A stretch of DNA of 64,000 nt from Trichocoleus sp. (GTDB lineage: Bacteria; Cyanobacteriota; Cyanobacteriia; Elainellales; Elainellaceae), in assembly GCA_036702865.1 (NCBI GenBank), contig DATNQD010000027.1, positions 186,001 to 250,000 on the forward strand. Reading direction: 5' to 3'. Below the pieces are notes generated by a model. That model saw nothing but the letters and a program-made list of their open reading frames with translations, did no database searches and was not told the origin of the DNA. Positions 5,331 to 27,469 of this stretch are shown here, one piece after another; position 1 is the stretch's first letter; every line of letters starts with the position of its first letter. The position numbers were made by a program, and so were the translations under genes.

Positions 5331-7744
5331 TAGAATCCCTGCCCGATGCCAAAGGTAATTCGGTTTTCCCCCTGATCATTCAGGGCATAGTCTACTCGGA
5401 CTAAACCGATCGGGGTTTGAACCCGTAAGCCTGCTCCATAGTCAAAGCCGCTGCCAGGTTTCTCTCGAATGCCTGCCGGATCACCCTGAATGTTAGAAGC
5501 TGTACCGAGATCAGAACCGACATCAACGAAGAGCGCACCGCTCACAATGGAAAATACTGGGAAGCGATATTCTACAGTTGCCTGGACAAAGCTGCTGCCG
5601 CTGCCCAAATCACCCGCTCCATAGCCGCGCACTGAATCTGTTCCGCCTAGAGCAAATGCTTCGTAAGGCGGAAAGTCTCCAATAATTGTGCCTGCCTGAA
5701 CATTAAACGCCAGCGTTTGTGGACAATCTTCAGGGCTGGGGTTGTCCTTCTGGCATCCCGGTGTTAGGCGAGTAAAACGAACGGGCAAGAAGTAGCTGTA
5801 ACTGCCTCGCAATCGATTAAAGCCAATACCATCAATCGGGATTGCCTGCTCTGTACTGAGGCGCAATACCGAACCACTGGTCGTTTGAATTGGGTCATTA
5901 CGTCGATCGCGGACTGCCGAAAGCTGTACAGTCCAGATGTTGTCAGTGCCAGACTCGTTGTAGCTCAGCAGATTTCCGAATTCGTCTCTTGGCGTAATTT
6001 CGCCATCTAGATCTCGAACCGTGACATTTTGAAACTGTGTTCCTAATGTCGCTCGCCAACCCTCTCCAAACGGACGGCTAAAGCTGACGCCAGCCCCATA
6101 GCGGCGAACCCGAGGACGATCGCCATTTGGCAAATTCACCTCTCTAGGACCTCCATCAAAGATCAGCGAGATGGATTGTCGGCCAAAAGCGTTGACGCTG
6201 TAGGAAGTCCGGTTTGGATCACCACCAATCCAGGGATCAGTAAAGTTAAGGTCAAAGAGCAGATCCCGCTGCCCCAATTGCACTTCTGCCGTCAGGTTCT
6301 GGTTATTGCCGCCCAGGTTTTGTTCCTGGAAGCTGACACTCCCGAATAAACCACTGGCAGAGCTAACGCCAAATCCAGCAGCCAACGATCCAGTATTTCG
6401 TTCGGTAACGTTGACCACGACATCAACTTGACGCGGATCTTGACCCGGATTGAGGGAAATGTTCAGGTCTTCGAAAATCCCAAGGGCAAAAGCCCGCTGC
6501 AAATCTCGGCGAATCTGGTTTTGGTTAAATACATTTCCTGGCTGAGATTCAAACTCACGGGTAATGATGAAATCCCTGGTACGTCCACGAACTGGGTTGC
6601 CTTCCTCGTCGATCGGCTGACCATCCTTCAGGAAGCGAATCTGGATATTTTCAATGACCCCTTCTGCAACTTCTAGCGTTACCGTGCCATCTGGAGCAAT
6701 TTGCGGAGCAGAAACCGCTTGTGCCAGGACATATCCATTGTCCCGATATAGCTGGTCAAGCTGCCTGATGCCTGCTTGTAGCTGACGCAAGTTGACAATA
6801 TTGCCGTATTGATCAGCGAAAATATCGTTAACTGCTTCTTGAAGAGGGACTTCCCGTCCCTGGTAAGTAATGTCTTGCAGCACACTTCCCTGAAGCTGCA
6901 CCTGCTGGAGTACAGGATTGGGCTGCACATAAAAAGTAACTCGCACCCCAAGTGACGTATCTTCTGGAACTGCCCGAACATTGGAGAAATACCCAGTCGC
7001 AAAGACGGCATTAATATCTTGCTGAAGCTGCGATCGAGTCGTAATCGTTCCGGGACGGGTTTGAATTGCCCCATAGACTTGATTCAGCAGGTCGCCTTCC
7101 GCACCAGATACTAAAACTTCTGAAACAAGCACTCTTGGTTCCGTTTGGTCTGCTTGAGTCGGGGTTTGAGGTGAAGGGGTTTGAGTGGCAGGCGGATTTG
7201 TTCCTGGCAAGGCGGGGGCTGCAGGCGTTTGTGAAGGATTCGCCTCAGAGGGGTTTGGAGTAGCAGGTGTCGTTGGTTGAGTCGAGGGAATATCAAAATT
7301 GAAATCGGGCCCAGGGATTGGATCAAACTGCAACTGGTCAGGTGATGTTGCTGAACCGGGCGTTTGAGTGCCAGGGGGTGGGTTACCAGGCTGATTTTGG
7401 GATTCGGAAGACGGGTCAGTTGGAAGCGTCTGCTGCGCAATAACGGAATTTGAGAACTCAGGTGACGTGACAGTAGGCAGAGAAATATTGCTGGAGAGCG
7501 GTATGACTGTCGATGGAGTGACTGCCGATGGAGCACTTCCCTGAACTGATCCTTGATCTGGCGGCTGTGTGGTGATCAAAGCTGGCTGCTCAGGTGTAGC
7601 AGAATCAGCGGAGCGGGTTGGCTCGGAAGGGTTTGCAGTCTCAGTCAGGGCATTGACAGCCTCAGATGCTTCTGCTTTGGGATGAGCGAGACCCAGGGCT
7701 GCGGCGGCAGTCATTGCTGCTAAAAAAATAGGAGAAAAACGCAT
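5330..7744 (-). CDS. bamA: Outer-membrane protein assembly factor BamA / Omp85
   Basis: BamA inserts beta-barrel proteins into the outer membrane. Starting at the ATG at 7744 ([20 protein letters not shown]) the protein has a signal peptide. A stretch of roughly 180 residues rich in Pro, Thr, Ser and Gln follows, then POTRA domains ([45 protein letters not shown]). The 16-stranded Omp85 barrel contains the conserved [17 protein letters not shown] loop motif. The last residue is Phe in FGIGQGF, the usual barrel signal. An upstream start at 7801 would bury the signal peptide and is unlikely. Confidence 0.95.
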
Positions 7745-7878
7745 ACGGCTAAGCAAGAGTGATACTTCCACACACCACGTCACAGACCTGTCGCATGGCA
7801 ACAGCGGTCAAGAATAAAGGACTTCCTAGAACCAAGAGAGTTCCAGGAAACGGAGCAATTGTACAGTATTCGATTTCT

Positions 7879-8622
7879 TTACGATCGCACAGGATGTGCC
7901 AGAACTCTTTCTAACACCTGACGATAAGCTTCTTCAACATTTCCCAAATCTTGCCGAAATCGGTCTTTGTCTAGAATACGCTGTTTTGGATCGGAGGCTG
8001 CCTGATTCCATAAGCGACAGGTGTCAGGGCTAATCTCGTCTGCCAGAATCAGCTTGCCATCTGTGTCAATGCCGAACTCAAGTTTGAAATCAACCAGCGT
8101 AATGCCACACTCCTGAAAAAACTGAACCAGAATTTGATTAATTTGGAGTGCCATTTGGCGCAATTGCTCGACTTGTTGCGGGGTTGCCAGCTCTAGTAGA
8201 AAAAGTCGATCGAGCGTCAGCATTGGATCACCCAAGCCGTCATTTTTGTAGTAGAACTCGACCAATGGCTGCTTCAGCACTGTTCCTAACTCTAGCCCCG
8301 TTTCACGGCAAAGGCTGCCAGCAGCAATATTGCGGATTACGACTTCAATCGGCAGAATTTTGACAGCGCGAACATGCATCTCAGTGGGAGCAGGGCGATC
8401 GATCCAGTGGGTTGGAACCCCTTTAGCCTCAAGCAACTGAAATAAATGGCTGGAGATGGCACAGTTCATCTCACCTTTGCCAATAATGCTGCCTCGCTTC
8501 TGCGCGTTAAAAGCAGTTGCGTCGTCTTTAAAGTGAGTTAGCAAAACATTGGGATCATCCGTTGGATAGAGGACTTTTGCTTTCCCTTCGTAAAGGATCG
8601 TAGGCTCTAACATATCTGACAT
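7879..8622 (-). CDS. purC: Phosphoribosylaminoimidazole-succinocarboxamide synthase (SAICAR synthetase)
   Basis: PurC condenses CAIR with aspartate using ATP in purine synthesis. The 247-residue protein starts LYEGKAKVLYPTDDPNVLLT and contains MHVRAVKILPIEVVIRNIAA and the signature LVDFKLEFGIDTDGKLILAD followed by EISPDTCRLW. It is the first gene of the envelope cluster and ends 134 bases before the bamA ATG. Co-location with omp85 and lpx genes recurs in cyanobacteria; a functional link to lipid A is not obvious, so shared transcription may be only positional. Confidence 0.97.
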   Translation of the reverse strand: MSDMLEPTILYEGKAKVLYPTDDPNVLLTHFKDDATAFNAQKRGSIIGKGEMNCAISSHLFQLLEAKGVPTHWIDRPAPTEMHVRAVKILPIEVVIRNIAAGSLCRETGLELGTVLKQPLVEFYYKNDGLGDPMLTLDRLFLLELATPQQVEQLRQMALQINQILVQFFQECGITLVDFKLEFGIDTDGKLILADEISPDTCRLWNQAASDPKQRILDKDRFRQDLGNVEEAYRQVLERVLAHPVRS

Positions 8623-9202
8623 AGTAAATGTGCGTTAAGGAACAATTACAGATTCCTGCTGAGCAGAAGATTAGTTTAAACACAAGTGGGGTGTTGTCTT
8701 ATCAACCCACTCAATCAGGAAGATGGAGTGCCATAAGAACAGCAAAAAGAGGATCGAAAGTTCTGAATCAAGCGATTTCTAGCTCTGCAAGCCCCACTAT
8801 TGTAGCGGTCAGCGGTATAGCGGTCAGAGCGGGTTCTGGTTGAAAAGATAGAGCTTTGTAAGGACTGATAACGGGACTGAGCAAACTTACGGAATTACAG
8901 CCATGCTTCACGAAGTTGCTAATCGTAATCGGCTCACTTGTTCCGCAATTTTGCGCTGAGAGAATGCTCTTACCCTGCTGTAAATTAGCAATGACATCTT
9001 ATTTAGAAAGTTTTTGTCTTCCAGAAAAAGCTCTCTTTCAAGAAAGAATTCTAAGGCAGGCCCACTATCATAGTGCGGTTTGATTAAGAACAGGTTAAAT
9101 TAAGATTAAAGCAAAAGAGCTACTGGAACAGCGGGTTAGAATCCGTGAGCAATACAACCTAGAAGGTTCAGTTTGAATGCAACACTAGACGGAGGGTGAG
9201 TC
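8623..9202. other. Intergenic region between purC and a DUF7219 gene
   Basis: This 580-base divergent spacer holds no convincing gene. A 10-base direct repeat TAGCGGTCAG occurs at 8803-8812 and 8818-8827 (15-base period). A 13-base palindrome CACTAT-C-ATAGTG lies at 9063-9075, about 130 bases before the next start codon. A 71-codon plus-strand reading frame at 8628-8843 has no recognisable domain and no good ribosome-binding site. Promoters for both flanking genes must lie here but I cannot place them reliably. Confidence 0.6.
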
Positions 9203-9457
9203 ATGACAAGCCGCACTAATTTTCTCTATCCCCGGGGTCGCTATCGCGGCGAGGTTAAGCCAGAAAACCTGGTTTTTAATGCGAATCTGCAAGAGTTTTC
9301 CCAGCGTGTGAGTTTAATTACAGGTTTGGAAAGCAACGGCAAGCTTAGTCCTGAAGAAGCTTATCAGCAAGTCCGTACCCTCTGGAAGCAACTCAAACGA
9401 AGTCGTCGAGAACTTGGTATTGGGCAGAACCCGTTTCAGGGTCAAGAAGACGCTTAA
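9203..9457 (+). CDS. Small conserved cyanobacterial protein (DUF7219-like)
   Basis: An 84-residue soluble, basic protein of unknown function. It opens with an Arg/Tyr-rich segment (TNFLYPRGRYRGEVKPENLV), followed by a helical part (NLQEFSQRVSLITGLESNGK, then LSPEEAYQQVRTLWKQLKRS). The Pro-Arg-Gly-Arg start and the EEAYQQ helix match my recollection of the family named DUF7219 in cyanobacterial annotations. GGAGGGTGAGTC immediately before the ATG provides a strong ribosome-binding site. A hairpin terminator follows the stop, so it is probably monocistronic. There is no signal peptide and no membrane segment. Confidence 0.8.
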   Translation: MTSRTNFLYPRGRYRGEVKPENLVFNANLQEFSQRVSLITGLESNGKLSPEEAYQQVRTLWKQLKRSRRELGIGQNPFQGQEDA

Positions 9458-9480
9458 AAAATAAAAAACGTAAAGGTTTG

Positions 9481-9512
9481 AAGGGGCGGGCTTTGTTCCG
9501 TCCTTTGTTTTT
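9481..9512 (+). terminator. Rho-independent terminator after the DUF7219 gene
   Basis: AAGGGGCGG (9481-9489) pairs with CCGTCCTTT (9498-9506) over nine positions including two G-U pairs, with an 8-base loop, followed by a T-rich tract (9508-9512). It lies 24 bases past the stop codon. Confidence 0.75.
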
Positions 9513-9666
9513 ATATTGCAGGGGTTCCGGAAGCAAGGGAATTGGAGCAAAAAGTTAGCTTGCTCTTTCACTCGATCGCGTCGTTCTTCCTGTTGGGACA
9601 ACTGCTATGGCAAGTAATTGATAACGGGTAACTCAGACTGGAGAACTGGCTGACCTGTTTCCTGCA

Positions 9667-12432
9667 TCACTTTTCCGTCAATGTCCAAACACCATCTGCC
9701 CAAACCTCTTCTGTTGGGGGATGAGTGAGCCAGTATTGGCAGCGTTCGATGTGCATCTGGGCTGCTTTGTCCTGATAGCTAATGTCTTCTAAGATAGTGC
9801 CGAATGCCTGCATTGCTTTCGTAAATTTGCGGTTCAGATAATGGCTACGTCCCTGATGATAGAGATCGATCGCCTGCTTTTTCTCATCTGAAAGCGGCTC
9901 TGAGCGCAGCCCCACCAATTCATAAATGCTGACAGGCTTGTTTTTGCCTTTGACTCGGATGCAATCTAACTCACGGGCCCAGACGCGATCGGCGCAGGGT
10001 TGGTAAGTGCTATCGCTGATGATGATATCTGTCCCATATTGCTTGCTGGCGCTTTCGAGCCGCGATCCCAAATTCACGCCATCCCCGATCGCCGTAAACT
10101 CAATTCGGCGGCTAGAGCCAATGTTGCCGCTAATCACCACATCTGAATTTAAGCCAATGCCAATCTTAATCTTGCGGTTTGCTGGACGGTTCTCATTAAA
10201 GAGCGTTAGACGGTGACGCATCTCGATCGCACTCTGTACCGACATCCAAGCATGATCTTCCAGCGGCACGAGCGACCCAAACACAGCCATGATCGCATCG
10301 CCAATGTATTTATCTAGTGCGCCATCATACCTAAAGACGGCATCCACCATTGATTCAAAATATTCGTTGAGCATGGCAACAACTTCCTCTGCTTCCATGC
10401 TTTCAGTCAAGGTCGTGTAGCTGCGGATATCGGAGAACAAGACTGAAACTTCTTTGCGCTCGCCGCCCAGCTTAATCTCGCCGCTGAGGGCACGCTCAAC
10501 CAGTTCTTGACTCATATAGCGCGACATCGCTGTTTTGATGCGTTTCTCCTTGCTGATGTCTTCAATGACGACCAAGCCACCCGACACCTGCTGCCCGTCA
10601 TTTGCATCGGCGATCGTATTAATGGTGAGGTTGATGCTGTGTTCCTGTCCATCTTGAGCAAGCAGCGTTTGGTCAACATAATATTGCTGGCTGCTCTTTT
10701 CGTCAGTGGCATTCAGAACGCTATGAAACCACTTATGGAAATCAGCTTTGTCTACCTGAACTAAGTTAGTAACGGGTTGCCCTTCCAGCACCGACCCTTC
10801 TGCTAAGCCCAAGAGTTTTTTTGCTCGCTCATTTGCCGTAATGACATTGCCTTCTTTGTCTGTGGAGATGACGCCATTGGAGAGCGATCGAAGAATATCC
10901 CGCTGGGTTTGTTCTTGCTGCTTGACCGTAGCAAATAGCTTGGCATTCTGAAGAGCAACCCCTGCCTGGATGTTGAATGCCTTCATGAATTCCTGGTCGT
11001 TGCGGTTAAAACTGGCTCGCCAGCACTCAGGTGCTTCTGGGTAGGTTGCCGGATCGTAAGGGGTTTCAACCCCCTGCTTTTTCTTGTTGATGAGCTGCGT
11101 CACTGCAATGAGTTCGTCATCAGCATTGAACACAGGCATACAGAGCATGCTGCAAGTCCGATAGTCCGTGCGTTTGTCGGTTTCTTTAGATTTAGTAGAG
11201 TTGGGATGATCGTACAGGTCAAAAGGGATTAAGACAGGTTTTCCCGTCATGGCAACCTGCCCAGCAAAGCCTTCACCCATTGAGATCCTAACTTCCTGCA
11301 GTCGTCCTTCAATCGGCAGTTTCGTCCAAAGCTGATGCCGCTCTCGATCGATAAGCCAGAGGGTACTCCGGTCTGCCTGCATTAGTTCTTTTGCCTCATC
11401 CATGACCTTTTTCAGAGTTTCCTCCAGGTCGAGGCTGCTCTGGCTAAGCGCCGTGGTTGCCTTCATCAGTGCCGAGGCTGCCCGCTGCTGCTGTGTTGCC
11501 TTGTAGAACGATCGCGAGGATTCTAGAATGAGCCGAATTGAGGGAGCAAAATCCCAAAATAGCTGTTCGTCTTTGGTAGTGAAGCCTTCCAGATCAATTT
11601 TTTCGTCTAGGGATGCTTCCGGATTGTGGACTGGCTTGAGCTTGTTGATCAACTGCACAACAGCAACTAGATTGCCCCCCTCGGTTAACAGGGGCATTGT
11701 CAGCATGGTGTACGTGCGATAGCCATTTTTCTTGTCGAGTTCTTGAGCCGTTTTTGAGCGCGGATCTCGGTAGAAATCGTAGGGAATATTGATTGCCTGC
11801 TTTGAGGTGGCTACTTCTCCAGCAATCCCCACTGTTTTAGGAAGGCGCAACTCCAGATTGCTGCCGTTCTCATCTTTAGCCATGATCGACCAAAGTTCAT
11901 CTTTTTCGTCATCCAACAGAAAAATTGTCGATCGATCGGCATTGAGCAGTTCGCCTGTCTTCAGGGTGATGGAGAGCAGCATCTCCTTGAGGATGGCATC
12001 AAACCCTTTGGACTCCAGCACATTATCCAACAGGGAAAGGGTCTGGTTGACGACCTGCAACTTCTGTTCAACGTCTGAGACGACTCGCCTAAAGCTCTCT
12101 TGCGTTAGCGGTGCGAGGAAAGCCTCGAAAGCACCTTGGCTTCGGGTGAGTTCACTGTTGGAGCGGACAATTTGACCAGGTTGGGAATTTTCGCTGGTTA
12201 TATCAATCATGTTGAGCGGTGAACCATTGCCTGGCTCAAGCTTGCGAGTCGGCATGATCTCGGGTTCATCCACTTCATTGGGGATGGGCTCGATCGCCAA
12301 ATTCTCATCCTGAGCGACCAGGGGGGAGAAATCGTCAGGGGCAGGCTGGGGATGCAGATGCGACGATGGAGCGTTCATAAAGGCTTTAGGAAGGGAGCGT
12401 CCAGGTCTAAAAATAGCCGAAGGGTCTATCAT
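9667..12432 (-). CDS. Class III adenylate cyclase with two GAF domains and a PAS domain (CyaB1/CyaB2-like)
   Basis: This protein probably makes cAMP and senses cyclic nucleotide through its GAF domains. Order: about 125 disordered residues, GAF-A (about 145-310), GAF-B (about 330-505), PAS (about 515-630), class III cyclase (about 655-830) and a helical TPR-like tail. GAF-A ends with the NKFDE-type signature (INK ... FTTKDE); GAF-B has INK ... FNRNDQ. The cyclase core shows both metal Asp residues (LFSDIRSYTTL; YIGDAIMAVFG) and the transition-state Asn and Arg in GDGVNLGSRLE. Architecture matches Anabaena CyaB1/CyaB2. The start may instead be the ATG at 12378. Confidence 0.9.
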   Translation of the reverse strand: MIDPSAIFRPGRSLPKAFMNAPSSHLHPQPAPDDFSPLVAQDENLAIEPIPNEVDEPEIMPTRKLEPGNGSPLNMIDITSENSQPGQIVRSNSELTRSQGAFEAFLAPLTQESFRRVVSDVEQKLQVVNQTLSLLDNVLESKGFDAILKEMLLSITLKTGELLNADRSTIFLLDDEKDELWSIMAKDENGSNLELRLPKTVGIAGEVATSKQAINIPYDFYRDPRSKTAQELDKKNGYRTYTMLTMPLLTEGGNLVAVVQLINKLKPVHNPEASLDEKIDLEGFTTKDEQLFWDFAPSIRLILESSRSFYKATQQQRAASALMKATTALSQSSLDLEETLKKVMDEAKELMQADRSTLWLIDRERHQLWTKLPIEGRLQEVRISMGEGFAGQVAMTGKPVLIPFDLYDHPNSTKSKETDKRTDYRTCSMLCMPVFNADDELIAVTQLINKKKQGVETPYDPATYPEAPECWRASFNRNDQEFMKAFNIQAGVALQNAKLFATVKQQEQTQRDILRSLSNGVISTDKEGNVITANERAKKLLGLAEGSVLEGQPVTNLVQVDKADFHKWFHSVLNATDEKSSQQYYVDQTLLAQDGQEHSINLTINTIADANDGQQVSGGLVVIEDISKEKRIKTAMSRYMSQELVERALSGEIKLGGERKEVSVLFSDIRSYTTLTESMEAEEVVAMLNEYFESMVDAVFRYDGALDKYIGDAIMAVFGSLVPLEDHAWMSVQSAIEMRHRLTLFNENRPANRKIKIGIGLNSDVVISGNIGSSRRIEFTAIGDGVNLGSRLESASKQYGTDIIISDSTYQPCADRVWARELDCIRVKGKNKPVSIYELVGLRSEPLSDEKKQAIDLYHQGRSHYLNRKFTKAMQAFGTILEDISYQDKAAQMHIERCQYWLTHPPTEEVWADGVWTLTEK

Positions 12433-12817
12433 TCTCTACAGCGATCTTAATGACTCAGGCAGATGTCCCACTACGATCGCTATCTCCGTAGTTATCTGAG
12501 TTTCACTATATCTGCTGGTCAGGGGATTGCTAAGCAAGAAACGATACAATTCTTCGCAAAACTTTGATACAGAATTTAACCGCTACGGTCAGAGTTCCCC
12601 AAATTTCGTTAAAGGTAGCAGGAGTGACGGAGATAGGTTGGAACTTCTGAAAAGCAGATGCCTGCGATCGGTCGACCCAGAAATGGGATGAGATTTTCGC
12701 CAAACTTCGCCAAAAAAAAGACTGAACCTGGTGCAGTTCAGTCCTAATTCTCTATTGTTTTACTTGAGAGAGGAATTTAAAAAGTCATTGATTGAGTGAA
12801 TTGAAAAGGCAAAAGTT
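12433..12817. other. Intergenic region between the cyclase and csbD-like genes
   Basis: These 385 bases lie upstream of the cyclase gene and downstream of the csbD-like gene, both on the minus strand. They contain the terminator of the csbD-like gene (12712-12743). No reading frame of interest was seen. The cyclase promoter should lie in 12433-12700, but no clear -35/-10 pair stands out. Confidence 0.6.
12712..12743 (-). terminator. Rho-independent terminator of the csbD-like gene
   Basis: GACTGAAC (12720-12727) and GTTCAGTC (12736-12743) form a perfect 8-base-pair stem with an 8-base loop. On the minus strand the stem is followed by eight T residues (the A tract at 12712-12719). This is a textbook terminator placed about 75 bases downstream of the gene's stop codon. 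Confidence 0.9.
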
Positions 12818-21990: not shown

Positions 21991-22338
21991 TCAGGGCGAT
22001 CGATCTTTGAGCAGTCGATGGATTCCTTGTAGCTCAACCAGGATAGTTTTGAGTAACTCTTGAGTCACGCTTTCAGTCGGTTGCTGAACTTCGATTGTCA
22101 CTTGTTTAATCCCTAGCACATCCTGAGCAAACCGTGCTACTTCATTGGGGTGAAACAGCAGGGGATCATCTTTGTTGACGCGCAACTCTGGGTTGAGTTT
22201 GCGGAAGTCGTAGCCAGGATTCAGTTCTGAGGGGTTGGTGTTGGCGTAGCGATAGACTGAAGCACGCGATCGATTCAGCGCTTTTTGGACGGACTCCACG
22301 GTCATGAGTCCTTGGGGTGTTGGGGAGTCGAGATCCAT
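21991..22338 (-). CDS. Putative helix-turn-helix protein, conserved hypothetical
   Basis: A 115-residue protein from the ATG at 22338; the open frame continues upstream to 22452, but those 38 residues look unlike a conserved N-terminus. Residues 10-30, GLMTVESVQKALNRSRASVY, resemble a MerR/excisionase-like winged helix, followed by RYANTNPSELNPGYDFRKLN. A C-terminal helix (TQELLKTILVELQGIHRLLK) could dimerise. I recognise the pattern as a cyanobacterial conserved hypothetical but can name no function. DNA binding is an inference from the helix pattern only. Confidence 0.65.
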   Translation of the reverse strand: MDLDSPTPQGLMTVESVQKALNRSRASVYRYANTNPSELNPGYDFRKLNPELRVNKDDPLLFHPNEVARFAQDVLGIKQVTIEVQQPTESVTQELLKTILVELQGIHRLLKDRSP

Positions 22339-22602
22339 GCAGATGCAGTAGTAAGAAGCTGACAGAGGAGACAGAAAAACCCGGATGGCAAACATCAGGG
22401 TATTCATCAGATTCTTAGTGTACGACGAACTAGTCTTAAAAAGAGACAGCAATCCAGCGAGATTGCTTTTCCGGCAGATGATAGGGTTTGGCGAGTAGGG
22501 GATCGGAGCAAATCATCGGCTAGATTAAGGTTCCAGCTCGATCGGGTATTTTACAGGTGAATCAAACTGTAACTAAACCGCCAAACTCATTCTGTGGCTT
22601 AC

Positions 22603-24594
22603 TTACACACTGATCTCTAGTGCAAAGCTGCGGATCTTGCCTGAATCCTGAGCGGCTTTATCAGCAACTTCCAGCGTCCAGTTTCCTGTCGGTACTTTTC
22701 CGGTTAACTCAGCAAGTCGAGGTGTGCTGGCACTGTCATAGGTTTTCTTGATGTTGTCTGTACCGCCCCCAGTCCGGTTGTGCAAGACGATCGGCGTTAC
22801 ACCTATGGCTTCAGGGGCATAAACCGTCACAATTAAATCTCCGATGTAGGGATGCTCAACATCGACCGTAATCTTGATAGATTTGATCGCTTTTGTTGCG
22901 GCAACTGCCAACGGCAAACGAGCCGTATCTAGATCTTTAACGGGAATATCTTGAGCAATTTTATAAGTGGTAGTTGGGGTTTGCTGATTGGGAACCGCTA
23001 GCTCAACCGCTTTTCGAGCATTGACTCGCCCATAGCCATAAAGAGGACTGCGACCATTGGCATCATAGTTGCCGCCTAAAGGATCAATTCGATCGCAAGA
23101 CTGCCTTAAGATCTCGCGCACCTGATCCCAGCGCAAATCAGGATTCCGGGCAATAATCAGCGCTGCTACCCCTGCCACACCTGGAGCCGAACTAGAGGTT
23201 CCACCAAATCCGTTGGTATAGTTGCCCCTAGGATCTCCTCGGAGCACATCACCGCCGTTATAGCCCACTGTGCCCGATCGATCGGTTGTCCAGATGCCTG
23301 TAGTTAGGGCAGGTTTGCCGTCATTGCTGGGGAAAGAGCACCAGACAGCTTTACCAAAATCGCTGTAAGCACTGCGTTGACTCGTATCATTGCAGGCAGC
23401 CACCGCAATTACTTTCGCGTAGCTGGCATAGCCGTCATTATCGACACTTTCGTTACCGTTTCCGGCTGCAAAAATGACCACGCAGCCTTTGCCATTCCGT
23501 CCCTGGCTCACAGCATAGTCGATCGCCAATCGCGTTGAGTCGGGTAAGGGTACGACCTGGTTATGCAATGGATCAGTGTTATCCCACCAGGCACCATCCG
23601 GTGGCCCCCAGCTACAGGAAATCACATCGGCACCATTCCGAGCCGCCCAAACAAAGGCATCGGCTTCTGCCTGCGAACCCAGCCCAGAGGCTAACCGAAT
23701 TGGAATAAGTTTTGCTCCGGGTGCAACTCCTGAGGCTCCAAAATTGCCATTAGCGCAGGCAACCCCAGCACAGGCAGTGCCGTGATCTTCAGCCCGTCCA
23801 GGTCTTGGATCGGCAGTCTGGCGAGTCACATCCCAGGGAGCAATAATCTTACCGGAGGAGCGAAATTCTTCATGGTCAATGTCTACTCCATCATCAATAA
23901 CGGCAACGATCGCCCCTGTACCATTACTAAGCGACCAAGCAGCTTCAACATTCGCGCTGGCATCAATAACGCGATTGTTAATGGTTGCCTTAGCAAGATG
24001 CCACTGATTCGGGAAGACTTTGCGTTCTCGCGTATCACTGACCAACTCGGGGTGGCAAAATTCAACGATCGGTTCTTGCAGCAGCGCCTCGGCAATCTCG
24101 AAGACGATCAGTCCGGTATCTTTTGGTGCACTGATAAAAAAGGCATTGCGGGCATAGTCAAGCTGGCGTTTAACCATGAGACCATAGCGCAGCAAGAGTT
24201 CCTGACAGGCATCTGGAGATTGGTCGTCGAAAAACTTGATAAAGAAATTCTCGGTATAAACGATGGGCTGATTCGATCGCACATCTACCAGAACTCGCCC
24301 AGCAAACTCAACTGCGGGTTCCGCTTTCAAAACCTCTCTAGCAATATCCCGGAGTGAACTATCGGGCTGAGGTACTTTGCTCTGGAGGATCTCAACTCCG
24401 GCATGGCGAAAGCGCGTTTTCAGCTCATAGTGTTGGTTCAACATCTGGTGGGTGGTTGGCTCTAGGGGCGTCACCTCAAACGATCGATGGCACAGCAGAA
24501 CCATCCGACTCGAGGTGCGAACTGCCAGATGATCATCACTGACTATAAATTCATACGCCTGACCGTTCTTGCCGCCATACTGTACCCTTACCAT
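22603..24594 (-). CDS. prcA: Calcium-dependent subtilisin-like protease with P domain (PrcA-like)
   Basis: A 663-residue S8 (kexin-type) serine protease, matching cyanobacterial PrcA in length and layout. Residues 1-190 form a propeptide-like region. The catalytic domain spans about 200-535 with Asp234 (AVIDDGVDID), His271 (EDHGTACAGVA), oxyanion Asn379 (FAAGNGN) and Ser467 (GGTSSSAPGVAG). A P domain (about 545-663, KITVDVEHPYIGDLIVTVYA) ends the chain. There is no signal peptide; PrcA is likewise considered intracellular. GAGGAGGAG before the ATG is a very strong ribosome-binding site. A divergent gene encodes a protein resembling the propeptide region. Confidence 0.9.
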   Translation of the reverse strand: MVRVQYGGKNGQAYEFIVSDDHLAVRTSSRMVLLCHRSFEVTPLEPTTHQMLNQHYELKTRFRHAGVEILQSKVPQPDSSLRDIAREVLKAEPAVEFAGRVLVDVRSNQPIVYTENFFIKFFDDQSPDACQELLLRYGLMVKRQLDYARNAFFISAPKDTGLIVFEIAEALLQEPIVEFCHPELVSDTRERKVFPNQWHLAKATINNRVIDASANVEAAWSLSNGTGAIVAVIDDGVDIDHEEFRSSGKIIAPWDVTRQTADPRPGRAEDHGTACAGVACANGNFGASGVAPGAKLIPIRLASGLGSQAEADAFVWAARNGADVISCSWGPPDGAWWDNTDPLHNQVVPLPDSTRLAIDYAVSQGRNGKGCVVIFAAGNGNESVDNDGYASYAKVIAVAACNDTSQRSAYSDFGKAVWCSFPSNDGKPALTTGIWTTDRSGTVGYNGGDVLRGDPRGNYTNGFGGTSSSAPGVAGVAALIIARNPDLRWDQVREILRQSCDRIDPLGGNYDANGRSPLYGYGRVNARKAVELAVPNQQTPTTTYKIAQDIPVKDLDTARLPLAVAATKAIKSIKITVDVEHPYIGDLIVTVYAPEAIGVTPIVLHNRTGGGTDNIKKTYDSASTPRLAELTGKVPTGNWTLEVADKAAQDSGKIRSFALEISV

Positions 24595-24816
24595 GCTGCT
24601 CCTCCTCGGACGCGAGCGTTTCTGTGTGTGTTATAGCTGCGATGCCATTGCGATTGCCATAGACTGAGAGAAATTTAACATCTGTTCAGACGGTATTTTG
24701 TCTAGCTTTATTTGGGGCTGCGCTAGGGTAGGAGCAAGCGGAGCATTGTGGAATCTAATTGTACGGATGAGATTTGCGGTTAGACGACTGCCAGTCAATG
24801 GGTCAGGGGATGCGAT

Positions 24817-25317
24817 ATGAGTGTGCAGCAAAATCAATTTCAGCAATATCCCGAAGAAGTCACTGTTAACAATACTCATACGGTCGTTTATTCGCTGACA
24901 TCGGGTTACTATGCCGTGCATTTTAAGGAATCTATAGCCACCCTTCCCCATGCCGTTCAAATCATCAGCAACGAAATTGCTATTTTTCAGGGAGAACCAG
25001 GTCTTCCTAAACAGCTAACCCAGGCTGCAACAATTACTGCTGTTTATGCCCTGGAACCGAGTGGCTTGATGGCAGTTCCAACAGGGCAGGTGATGATTCG
25101 CTTTGCAGAAAGCGTGGCGATCGAATCTCAAGAAGCCGTCATTCGAGCTGCAGGCTATGAAATTGCCCAAACCCTTTTTTATGCGCCGCATACAGCCTGG
25201 CTCCGAGCAACATCTGGGGAAGTGGCAGATGCCCTCTGCTGGATCTCTCGTTTAAAGGCGATCGATCAAGTTGAGCATGTAGAGCCGCAGATGGTGATGG
25301 GGCGATCGATGAAGTAG
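24817..25317 (+). CDS. Small protein resembling the propeptide region of the adjacent subtilase
   Basis: A 166-residue protein with no signal peptide and no catalytic residues. Residues about 85-158 align by eye with residues 105-185 of the PrcA-like protease. Matching blocks include VPTGQVMIRFAESV against VYTENFFIKFFDDQ, AGYEIAQTLFYAPHTAWLRA against YGLMVKRQLDYARNAFFISA, and VEHVEPQMV against VEFCHPELV. The N-terminal YYAVHFKES also resembles HLAVRTSSR. AGGGGA lies 8 bases before the ATG. Subtilase propeptides fold and inhibit their protease, so a stand-alone inhibitor or folding helper is plausible but unproven. Confidence 0.7.
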   Translation: MSVQQNQFQQYPEEVTVNNTHTVVYSLTSGYYAVHFKESIATLPHAVQIISNEIAIFQGEPGLPKQLTQAATITAVYALEPSGLMAVPTGQVMIRFAESVAIESQEAVIRAAGYEIAQTLFYAPHTAWLRATSGEVADALCWISRLKAIDQVEHVEPQMVMGRSMK

Positions 25318-25354
25318 GGGAGAGGCTTACCTTCTGGCTCCTGACCCCTGCTCT

Positions 25355-27469
25355 TTAGCCGATTGGTAAGGTGAACCAAAAAGTCGTACCCTGGGCAAGC
25401 TTGCTTTCAACGCCGATCGCTCCACCATGCGCTTCCACAATTTGCCGACAGAGATAAAGCCCTAGCCCCAGTCCCACCGATTTTGGTCTTTTGTCGCCTC
25501 TGAAGTATGGGTCAAACAGGCGATCGAGCTGTTCTGGTTTGATACCAATGCCGTTGTCGCTAACGGTGCAATAGATCCATCTGTCCTCTTGCTTGGCTGC
25601 CAGGGTAATGGTCAGCCCAGGGGGGTTATGTTTGAGCGCATTGGCAAACAGGTTTTGGTAGACGCGGGCAAGCTGGAGTGGATCGACTATGACCAGTGGC
25701 AGATCTTCAGGAATGATGTTTTGAACGCTCGTTTGCTCTTTGTCGAACATGGGTTGCAGGTCAGAGAGGGCAGAGTTGACCAGCGATCGGAGTGCGAGCG
25801 GTTCAGGGTGCAGCGCAATGCCCCAAATCTCAGCGGCATGAGTGTCAATCAAAGAATTAATTAAATCAAGCTGACGTTGATTGCTGTCCTGCATTCGCTC
25901 CAGCACTTTGCGCGGCAGTTTCAAGTCATTTCCAGATTGCTCACTCAAGTTATTGAGTACCATTGCAGTTCCAATGACTGGATTTCGCAGATCATGCGAT
26001 ACGGCATGGAGAAAGAGGTTTAGCTGTCTTCTTAGTTCGGCTTCCAGGGTTTCGAGCTGCTGATTCTTTTGCTCTAGTCCGCGCGAGTATTCTTCAAGCT
26101 GCTGATGCGAGAGTTTTAGCTGCTGCCGCATGTGATTAAACGCATGAGCCATAATGCCTAGCTCGCCCGATCGCTGAATCCTAACTTCTCGCTCCCAATC
26201 TCCTGCTGCCAAATCTTCAGCAGCATGACTCAGTTCCAGAATGGGTCGGGTGATCCAACGACTGGTTGCAACTCCAGAAGCGATCGCAACCAGCAGCGCC
26301 AGCAGACAGAGCCAGATTGTTATGCGGGTGTTTTCGTTAATCTTTGCCATAAATTCCTCTTCAGGAATTACAACAACGACTAACCAATCCAATCCCTGGT
26401 ACTGAGAACGCTGATTGAGTGGAAACGGCTGAACTTTGACAAATCGCCGCCTGTCCCCGTCGTGAAACTCAAGCTCTTGAGGACGAGTAATGTTGCTGAA
26501 GGTGCCAAAGCCTTGTTGCAGAGATTCAGCTGTTCTCCTGGTCAGCTTATCCTGGCTTTCCTGAACATTGATCAAAACCTTCTCTTGGTTCTTGATCTGG
26601 TAAGGTCGCTCTTGGGTGGAGGTTGCAATTAGATTGCCATTAGGTTCAAGGATGAAAATCTGTCCTGTTTTGCCGACTTTTAAGTTGCAGAGAAACTGTC
26701 CAATTCCAGCTAAATTAAATGTCGCATCTGCAACTCCAATCAAATTTCCCTGTAAGTCATAAAGGGGACGATCGGCAGAAATGACGGGAGCATCATCGGT
26801 CACCGTAAAGTAGGGGTCAACCCAGACCAGAGAGCCTGCCTGAACTGCTTTCTGATACCAGGGCCGTTGGCGGGGATCATAAGGAATTCTGTTTTTGATG
26901 CCGGTTCGCCTGCCCCACCTGTTGACTGACCAAGTGATCATTCTGCTGTCTTTCCGGATGTCACGAACACTGGTTTCCAGTTCATTGTTTGCGTTGAAGC
27001 CAATATCAATGTAGTTTCCGGTTTCTGAAGCAAGCGCAATGAATGATAATCCGCCCTGCTGAGGCTTGTTCGCTTGAGGATTGCGGCAGCGTTGCTCTGT
27101 GAGAACAGGATCGCTAAATGGCTGGTCCTTAAACTGCTGAAACTGCTTCCACAGATAAGGTTCTAAACTTGCAATATTATTAGGGTCAATTAATCCGAGT
27201 CGGGCAGCATCGGCATTAATCTGAGTGACAAGCTTCGGCACGCTGAGATAGGTTTCTAGCGTTTGTTTTGTTCGATCGCTCGCCTCTTGCTCCAGTTGGC
27301 TCACCAGATCACGCACGGCATCCTGTCCATTCTGGTAAGACAAATAGCCTGTAATACTGACGATCGTTACAATTTGCAGCACAAACGGAATGATCAGAAT
27401 GGCTCGGAGGGGTAGCCGTCTAGAAACATTGGTAAGCGATTTAAGCAGCGTGTAGCGCAACGGTCGCAT
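25355..27469 (-). CDS. Membrane sensor histidine kinase with extracellular dCache-type domain
   Basis: A 704-residue orphan two-component sensor. It has TM1 at about 24-43, a periplasmic double-Cache domain at about 45-380 (IPYDPRQRPWYQKAVQAGSL and DPYFTVTDDAPVISADRPLY are typical), TM2 at about 383-403, and HAMP at about 403-455. A short coiled coil leads into HisKA with phospho-acceptor His492 in HAVSHDLRNPVIG. The HATPase domain shows NALKHN, DNGIGIKPEQ and GLGLGLYLCRQ. No response regulator is adjacent, so its partner is elsewhere. dCache domains usually bind small molecules such as amino acids; the ligand is unknown. Confidence 0.93.
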   Translation of the reverse strand: MRPLRYTLLKSLTNVSRRLPLRAILIIPFVLQIVTIVSITGYLSYQNGQDAVRDLVSQLEQEASDRTKQTLETYLSVPKLVTQINADAARLGLIDPNNIASLEPYLWKQFQQFKDQPFSDPVLTEQRCRNPQANKPQQGGLSFIALASETGNYIDIGFNANNELETSVRDIRKDSRMITWSVNRWGRRTGIKNRIPYDPRQRPWYQKAVQAGSLVWVDPYFTVTDDAPVISADRPLYDLQGNLIGVADATFNLAGIGQFLCNLKVGKTGQIFILEPNGNLIATSTQERPYQIKNQEKVLINVQESQDKLTRRTAESLQQGFGTFSNITRPQELEFHDGDRRRFVKVQPFPLNQRSQYQGLDWLVVVVIPEEEFMAKINENTRITIWLCLLALLVAIASGVATSRWITRPILELSHAAEDLAAGDWEREVRIQRSGELGIMAHAFNHMRQQLKLSHQQLEEYSRGLEQKNQQLETLEAELRRQLNLFLHAVSHDLRNPVIGTAMVLNNLSEQSGNDLKLPRKVLERMQDSNQRQLDLINSLIDTHAAEIWGIALHPEPLALRSLVNSALSDLQPMFDKEQTSVQNIIPEDLPLVIVDPLQLARVYQNLFANALKHNPPGLTITLAAKQEDRWIYCTVSDNGIGIKPEQLDRLFDPYFRGDKRPKSVGLGLGLYLCRQIVEAHGGAIGVESKLAQGTTFWFTLPIG
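26280..26287. repeat. HIP1 octamer GCGATCGC
   Basis: An exact copy of the highly iterated palindrome of cyanobacterial genomes. Other exact copies are at 34844-34851 and 52073-52080, and CGATCG-containing variants are scattered through almost every gene. Confidence 0.9.

Follow-up and report, generated by a model that had tools for sequence, protein, structure and literature searches.

The described systems closest to the gene pair presented here come from Aeromonas sobria and from Plasmodium. In A. sobria, a protein known as ORF2 is encoded beside the kexin-like protease ASP and is needed for ASP maturation; its C-terminal Lys lies at the catalytic centre of ASP, and it inhibits the protease with a half-maximal inhibitory concentration (IC50) of 84.3 nM, according to the available part of the source (PMC5638518). 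The title of a paper cited there calls ASP propeptide-deficient (PMC5638518). In Plasmodium, SUB1-ProM is the product of a separate gene located by subtilase genes, and the accessible part of its description reports a predicted prodomain fold, little sequence likeness and inhibitory activity (PMC6993865). The pair under study here is bacterial. It lies in a stretch of 64,000 nucleotides from Trichocoleus sp. (assembly GCA_036702865.1, contig DATNQD010000027.1, positions 186,001 to 250,000), henceforth "the window", to which all coordinates refer. One gene encodes a kexin-like S8 serine protease of 663 residues with a pro-region and a P domain (P0002; 22603-24594, minus strand); the other encodes a protein of 166 residues that resembles a stand-alone prodomain (P0001, or "the small protein"; 24817-25317, plus strand, ATG start).

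An initial annotation made from the nucleotide sequence had placed both open reading frames (ORFs) correctly and had taken the small protein for a relative of the protease pro-region that stands alone and is encoded divergently. Homology, a prodomain-like predicted fold and close linkage to the protease gene bear out that view. Its further suggestions, a PrcA-like protease that the small protein might keep silent until calcium or stress intervenes, are possibilities. Judging from sequences, models and analogy, we propose that the small protein is probably a trans-acting mimic of the prodomain of its neighbour, which would serve as an active-site brake and possibly as a foldase too.

Homology between the small protein and the protease pro-region

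When the two window proteins were compared directly, BLASTP yielded only short chance pieces, none of them in the matching region. A local alignment scored 34, while shuffled sequences scored 28.9 ± 4.7 and 301 of 2000 shuffles reached the observed value. In ungapped comparison, the register that sets small-protein residues 84-166 on protease residues 109-191 was the best of 118, with a score of 18 and 14 identities in 83 positions; no shuffle in 1000 reached 18 in any register, the best one scoring 17.

Family profiles were then compared. Among 388 genomes of the class, a 7-row profile of the small protein detected the small gene in 20 genomes, plus seven large ORFs in seven genomes (best E-value per genome, 3e-7), two of which also carry the small gene. 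All seven large ORFs are S8 proteases, and in two genomes the matched ORF is the adjacent protease itself. With a protease profile, matches were obtained to 7 of the 19 small proteins and fell at ~110-190 of the protease; in the reverse direction, the small-protein profile matched four proteases of the same set with E-values up to 0.01. The window pair is not among the matches in either direction. Profile-profile comparison with hhalign gave an E-value of 3e-6 and a probability of 88% (7 versus 6 rows, repeated with 41 versus 38). Because family profiles match both ways, the homology is firm, though pairwise search shows nothing. The small protein is homologous to the pro-region of the protease; profiles, hhalign and predicted folds agree. 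The likeness to protease residues 105-185 that had been noticed by eye is real, and the limits given for the core were right. The claim that a catalytic part is missing from the small protein also holds.

Searches of family databases with the small protein were less informative. No family above cut-off was found for P0001 in Pfam or NCBIfam. Its only Pfam family at E-values up to 1 is PF22148 (Fervidolysin_NPro-like), a subtilase prodomain, which matches residues 89-158 with an E-value of 0.012; this family touches 2 of 18 small proteins and 5 of 31 aligned S8 proteases. At the same limit, Pfam Inhibitor I9 matched neither P0001 nor the 18 small proteins of alignment A4, and Pfam ORF_2_N matched none of the 18. 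Two larger alignments were made: A6, in which 41 of the 64 small proteins remained once near-duplicates, broken sequences and a few odd ones (L140 among them) had been removed, and A7, which holds 38 pro-regions chosen from proteases that reach the N-terminus. Searches of PDB sequences with P0001, A4, A6 and A7 found neither a prodomain nor ORF2, and NCBIfam, PHROGs and PADLOC offered nothing credible for the small protein. Scans of genome and viral contigs with P0001 as a single protein confirmed no relative, and none was found by tblastn of plasmid records. It was an 18-row alignment, not the single sequence, that retrieved the 63 loci discussed below.

Predicted folds

AlphaFold models were obtained for the small protein (mean predicted local distance difference test, pLDDT, 90.3; predicted template modelling score, pTM, 0.83) and for protease residues 1-200 (pLDDT 87.2, pTM 0.79). 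Both models carry a βαββαβ unit in the homologous stretch; differing folds, which would have told against the initial view, were not seen. In the small protein, the predicted core (residues 84-166; 25066-25314, plus strand) is made of strand 84-96, helix 102-111, strands 114-119 and 126-131, helix 136-147 and strand 152-161. Its homologous counterpart, the second unit of the pro-region (residues 105-192; 24019-24282, minus strand), contains strand 110-121, helix 127-136, strands 140-144 and 151-155, helix 163-172 and strand 177-186. The first unit of the pro-region (residues 1-104; 24283-24594, minus strand) is also βαββαβ-like from strand 12-27 onward, with helix 46-55, strands 56-62 and 67-72, helix 80-90 and strand 95-104. 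As modelled, the pro-region would be a tandem of two prodomain-like units. Ahead of its core, the small protein has an all-beta part (residues 13-80; 24853-25056, plus strand) with strands 14-18, 22-36, 48-51, 54-58 and 71-80 and no helices. Both models open with a similar pair of strands (2-6 and 12-27 in the protease, 14-18 and 22-36 in the small protein), and the likeness may extend beyond the core toward the N-terminus.

In a VIA search with the small-protein model, the top match was the PC1/3 prodomain bound to furin (Z 9.1, root-mean-square deviation [rmsd] 2.6 over 78 residues), and the top 14 rows were all subtilase prodomains, with Z from 9.1 to 7.8. Tk-subtilisin and subtilisin propeptides were among the best solved matches. 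Foldseek likewise placed PC1/3 prodomains with furin in its top three rows (probability 1.00, E-values from 7.6e-3 to 1.2e-2). By fold, the model thus has what is typical of the subtilase prodomain superfamily, a βαββαβ (ferredoxin-like) unit followed by a C-terminal tail. For the protease pro-region, PC1/3 prodomains headed the VIA ranking (Z 8.9, rmsd 2.4 over 78 residues) and Aeromonas ORF2 came next; the Foldseek list was led by RRM and ACT proteins, with high rmsd across both units. In the first unit, one VIA row pairs residues 20-107 with the PfSUB1 prodomain (Z 6.7). The ORF2 structure (3wqb_B) matched the small-protein model with Z 6.9 and the pro-region model with Z 7.8. As Z values near 8-9 lie only somewhat above background, the fold evidence backs the sequence evidence and does not stand alone.

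A basic C-terminal tail in register with the presumed cleavage site

The small protein ends with R163-S-M-K166 (25303-25314, plus strand), a tail that is marked by column conservation and that we propose as a product-like end for the S1 pocket. K166 of the small protein and R191 of the protease are each found nine positions past a conserved Pro (P157 and P182, respectively), with no gap. Column 166 is occupied by R or K in 59 of 60 readable small proteins (64 minus the broken or cut L155, L166, L167 and L168), the exception being L140, and in all 41 rows of A6, where it is the last residue in 20. Exact termination at column 166 is seen in 27 of the 60; 26 add 1-3 residues and the rest 4-75. 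On the protease side, R189-x-R191 (24022-24030, minus strand) marks the junction between pro-region and catalytic part in the alignment and is presumably the site of self-cleavage. Position 191 is Arg in 38/38 aligned pro-regions of A7 and position 189 in 33/38, and R191 is mostly three positions ahead of the motif FPxQWHL, with which the kexin-like catalytic part begins. With its tail in this register with R191, the small protein resembles a pro-region whose end coincides with its own cleavage site. The kexin-like nature of the partner fits a basic P1 residue.

The partner protease

P0002 matches Pfam Peptidase_S8 (1.4e-46) and P_proprotein (9.2e-13), and kexin and furin are its top PDB matches by sequence. 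The catalytic domain spans residues 225-522 (23029-23922, minus strand) and the P domain residues 571-660 (22615-22884, minus strand). D234, H271 and S467, which we take to be the catalytic triad from the alignment and from general knowledge of the family, are invariant across 31 aligned proteases (24 of the close clade and seven distant ones). With an S8 catalytic domain that has its triad and with a P domain, P0002 belongs with the proprotein-convertase or kexin-like S8 proteases. D333 and D387, presumably the acidic S1 residues by comparison with kexin and furin, are invariant in six close relatives and are not among the residues listed as invariant across the 31 rows. Pfam ORF_2_N, the N-terminal domain of Aeromonas ORF2, touches 4 of the 31 aligned proteases weakly (best E-value 0.0044).

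Partner proteases are 54-100% identical to P0002, and identity drops to 36-42% in other cyanobacterial S8 proteases. The partner protease is a single clade, well set apart from the others. No relative of the small gene was found beside 14 proteases of 36-42% identity (three loci incomplete). These proteases (L092-L105) have another conserved divergent neighbour: by eye, 11 of the 14 loci carry a gene for an exported-looking protein of ~200 residues, which in 10 of the 11 is followed by a glutaredoxin-like gene.

Distribution, linkage and co-inheritance

The small gene was found in 7 of 36 genomes of an order-level sample and in 20 of the 388 class genomes, all 20 among the 25 genomes that have a close-clade protease. 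If genes were placed at random, an overlap of 20 in 25 would have a chance of 4e-29, a figure to be read in the knowledge that the genomes are related and that candidate scoring was limited. As few candidates were scored per genome in the class samples (eight with the small-gene profile and three with the protease), absences in these samples are no proof. The survey of co-occurrence thus agrees with the proposed pairing, as a small gene lacking the protease was not seen among the 20 class genomes.

The pair is adjacent and divergent in 19 of the 20 class genomes, two of which have a broken or cut small gene or protease. In the twentieth, the partners are 8.2 kb apart with an array of clustered regularly interspaced short palindromic repeats (CRISPR) between them. 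This array (G023, L090:4744-12957; also L143) has a 36-base repeat at a spacing of ~75 bases, with at least 69 copies in 7000-12500, and is the only case seen of an array separating the pair.

A profile scan of named genomes yielded 63 loci. Cyanobacterial ones belong to Nostoc and relatives, to picocyanobacteria and to Pseudanabaenaceae; others come from bins assigned to Deltaproteobacteria, Pyrinomonadaceae, Manganitrophus, Nitrospira or Nitrospirales, and Desulfuromonadales, so that the spread beyond cyanobacteria includes Nitrospirota, Acidobacteriota and deltaproteobacterial bins. In 60 of the 63 loci, all or part of the protease is encoded upstream on the opposite strand (one 5 kb off, two broken); the aligned starts, measured in 57 cases, are a median of 368 bases and at most 5 kb apart. 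In the remaining three, the genes are divergent on the same contig after insertions (L120 and L143) or the small gene is at a contig edge (L155), with a protease piece on another contig of that genome. In L166 (RM1_1_8) and L167 (Microcystis elabens) both genes are broken, which suggests joint decay.

Side observations on two of these loci can be added. In Nostoc sp. JL33 (L120; L169:2452-10127) a 7.6-kb insertion that splits the pair encodes an 873-residue protein and has ORFs that look like a resolvase and a transposase. The similar 5-kb interval of L115 does not have those two among its listed ORFs.

Evolutionary distances among the small proteins correlate with those among the catalytic parts (r = 0.94 for 52 pairs, a value reached by none of 2000 permutations), and the same comparison between the two parts of the protease itself gives r = 0.95. 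The 52 pairs were taken from the 63 loci plus the window, leaving aside truncated or broken loci, loci that lack a whole protease and three odd tails. The small protein evolves faster: the distance from the window to L106 is 0.77 for the small protein versus 0.31. When a tree was built from prodomain cores, the 41 small proteins grouped together as a single clade on a long branch with 100/100 support, which fits a single split that stayed with its enzyme. With 86 columns, the tree is too short to indicate the source lineage; the fork with the protease of G118 has 82/0 support.

In the window, 222 bases (24595-24816) separate the two genes. A promoter scan of 24500-25450 gave one promoter-like match, not above shuffles, and a terminator scan of the intergenic region was uninformative. 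Downstream of the protease, 21991-22452 (minus strand) encodes a protein of 153 residues that weakly matches HTH_17, and counterparts with 70-78% identity occupy the same position in L010 and L013.

N-termini and possible compartments

P0001 starts at MSV, without a signal peptide as judged by eye; L008 and L009, the two relatives closest to it, have a start codon, GTG, at the aligned place. P0002 and 24 further protease N-termini also lack a signal peptide by eye, and four of these 25 ORFs carry ~12-18 extra codons that were taken as false upstream starts. Among the small proteins, signal- or lipobox-like N-termini are seen by eye in L010, L012/L142, L013/L150, L148, L154, L158 and L151/L152, and in L162 a start codon further upstream lies in frame and is accompanied by a hydrophobic stretch. 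No clear signal is seen by eye in the common Nostoc form (MFYFPAEYF...) or in 6 of 7 readable N-termini of non-cyanobacterial small proteins. Read from these N-termini, the compartment of the partner may vary among relatives.

In the available part of a report on the exoproteome of Anabaena PCC 7120, the proteins found include two that are encoded as divergent neighbours, All1380 ("no similarity") and Alr1381 ("calcium-dependent protease") (PMC4390845). All1380 and Alr1381 may be the pair described here. In the accessible part of another paper, a table labels Alr1381 as prcA and also lists futABC with Alr1381 (PMC3610870). Genes of the fut type, sought in order to equate our pair with the Anabaena one, were not detected beside it in a motif search of 68 loci.

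A putative brake on the protease, and its alternatives

Homology, predicted fold, linkage, co-inheritance and tail conservation were computed here, and the mechanism that we propose goes beyond them. The small protein would fold as a prodomain unit and dock on the catalytic domain at the site used by the pro-region in cis. Its C-terminal Lys or Arg would then enter the active site, taking the place of R191, the cleavage-site residue of the pro-region. The small protein would thus be a brake dedicated to the adjacent kexin-like protease, blocking its active site and probably being digested slowly, and it may additionally aid folding of the enzyme. As the genes diverge from one short region, the ratio of protease to mimic could be set from this shared regulatory stretch. 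The pair has been kept together across cyanobacteria and other groups, and a built-in brake or folding helper is therefore probable. More weight is given to the brake than to the foldase because the protease has a pro-region of its own and some relatives live without the partner, although in the case of ORF2 help with folding counts as much as inhibition.

Several observations weigh against the proposed brake. The protease already has a pro-region in cis, and the need for an extra brake is not obvious. Close-clade proteases lack a detected small gene in 5 of 25 genomes (G333, G010, G012, G118 and G177), and the protease thus manages without a partner in some lineages. If the protease is cytoplasmic, the export-like N-termini of some relatives would put the partners in different compartments. 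In 33 of 60 relatives the sequence continues beyond the basic residue, in most of them for 3 residues and at most for 75, and the tail motif is missing from L140. The correlation of distances is partly due to shared species history. The PF22148 score of P0001, 16.4 bits, is below the gathering cut-off of 21, so that membership of that family is not supported. In the structural searches, Z values of 8-9 exceed the usual background of 7-8 only slightly; a non-prodomain protein, Boca, appears at VIA row 15 with Z 7.8; and Foldseek gave no row below an E-value of 0.001, RNA-binding proteins coming next at 1.3e-2.

Other explanations deserve consideration. The small protein might be mainly an external folding helper in the manner of ORF2, inhibition being a side effect that lasts until the helper is digested. 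ORF2 is required for active ASP and is encoded beside it, according to the available part of the source (PMC5638518), both window models match the ORF2 structure, and ORF_2_N weakly touches four of the 31 aligned proteases. We consider this role unlikely, however, as ASP is described as propeptide-deficient, whereas 58 of 60 partner proteases reach the start of the pro-region; furthermore, 5 of 25 close-clade proteases have no findable small gene, and ORF_2_N is absent from the 18 small proteins at E-values up to 1. It is still less probable that the small protein is an export-side protein or lipoprotein that shields the envelope or neighbours from released or secreted protease. Such a function would suit the signal- or lipobox-like N-termini of several relatives, the upstream hydrophobic start of L162 and the presence of both All1380, a candidate member of the small-protein family, and Alr1381 in the Anabaena exoproteome as given in the available part of that report (PMC4390845); it does not suit the window protein, the common Nostoc form and 6 of 7 non-cyanobacterial N-termini, none of which has a clear signal by eye, nor the 25 protease N-termini without one.

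Would the small protein be an activator or a substrate adaptor that displaces the cis pro-region? With two prodomain-like units in cis, a trans copy could displace one, and its tail is a plausible cleavage site; nevertheless, our literature search gave no precedent of an activator among stand-alone prodomains, and both ORF2 and SUB1-ProM inhibit, which makes this option very improbable. Least credible of all is that the likeness is due to chance or to a generic ferredoxin-like fold, the small gene having an unrelated job. Ferredoxin-like folds are indeed common, RRM and ACT proteins lead the Foldseek list of the pro-region, BLASTP was negative and 301 of 2000 shuffles reached the pairwise score; yet the seven large ORFs matched by the small-family profile in 388 genomes are all S8 proteases, the genes are linked in 60 of 63 loci, and the tail is in register with R191.

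The brake that we favor can be carried one step further, into a possible but doubtful speculation: a two-layer zymogen lock, in which a leaderless, presumably cytoplasmic protease would be held by its tandem cis prodomain and by the trans mimic, the pair moving between phyla like a toxin and its antidote. If so, the protease would be let loose only once less mimic than enzyme is made or survives.

If the small protein is indeed a brake, an unannotated gene of many Nostoc and other cyanobacteria becomes a testable candidate for a protease regulator and offers a handle on how such cyanobacterial proteases are restrained. It also opens the question of how stand-alone prodomains arise.

Comparison with known systems

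A literature search, mostly of freely accessible titles and abstracts, did not find the pair described as a protease and its prodomain mimic, and the available part of a survey of subtilases mentions no such pair (PMC9549277). Prodomains of known structure have their fold in common with the small protein, as seen with PC1/3 (PDB 9fie), Tk-subtilisin (2z2y) and subtilisin BPN' (1spb). These three prodomains are encoded in cis with their subtilases. Free-standing, propeptide-like inhibitors of subtilases exist in fungi and yeast, where POIA1 and IB2 are of the I9 type; we know of none that is paired with one neighbouring protease gene. The small protein differs from them, as it does not match Pfam I9 at E-values up to 1. 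SUB1-type proteases, to which the partner of SUB1-ProM belongs, presumably lack a P domain, unlike P0002.

The likeness to Aeromonas is closer in several respects. Both ORF2 and the small protein are encoded by stand-alone genes beside the gene of a kexin-like protease, both have a basic C-terminal residue (K166 in the window protein), and the ORF2 structure (PDB 3wqb) resembles the models of the small protein and of the protease pro-region. However, orf2 is just downstream of the ASP gene in the part of the description available, whereas the small gene is divergent. ASP is described as propeptide-deficient, while P0002 carries a pro-region of its own; among 60 partner proteases, 58 extend into the first 10 positions of a profile that starts with the pro-region, and the two that fall short are the broken L166 and L167. 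In this regard the locus is closer to SUB1-ProM, whose partner protease also retains its propeptide. According to the available part of its description, SUB1-ProM differs in that it belongs to a eukaryotic parasite, is secreted into the vacuole, lies in a same-strand cluster and has a SUB1-type partner. If our reading is correct, bacteria pair the gene of a protease that retains its own prodomain with one for a trans-acting prodomain mimic, an arrangement that our literature search showed otherwise only for a malaria parasite. The locus would thus join ORF2-like and SUB1-ProM-like features in bacteria, with divergent genes.

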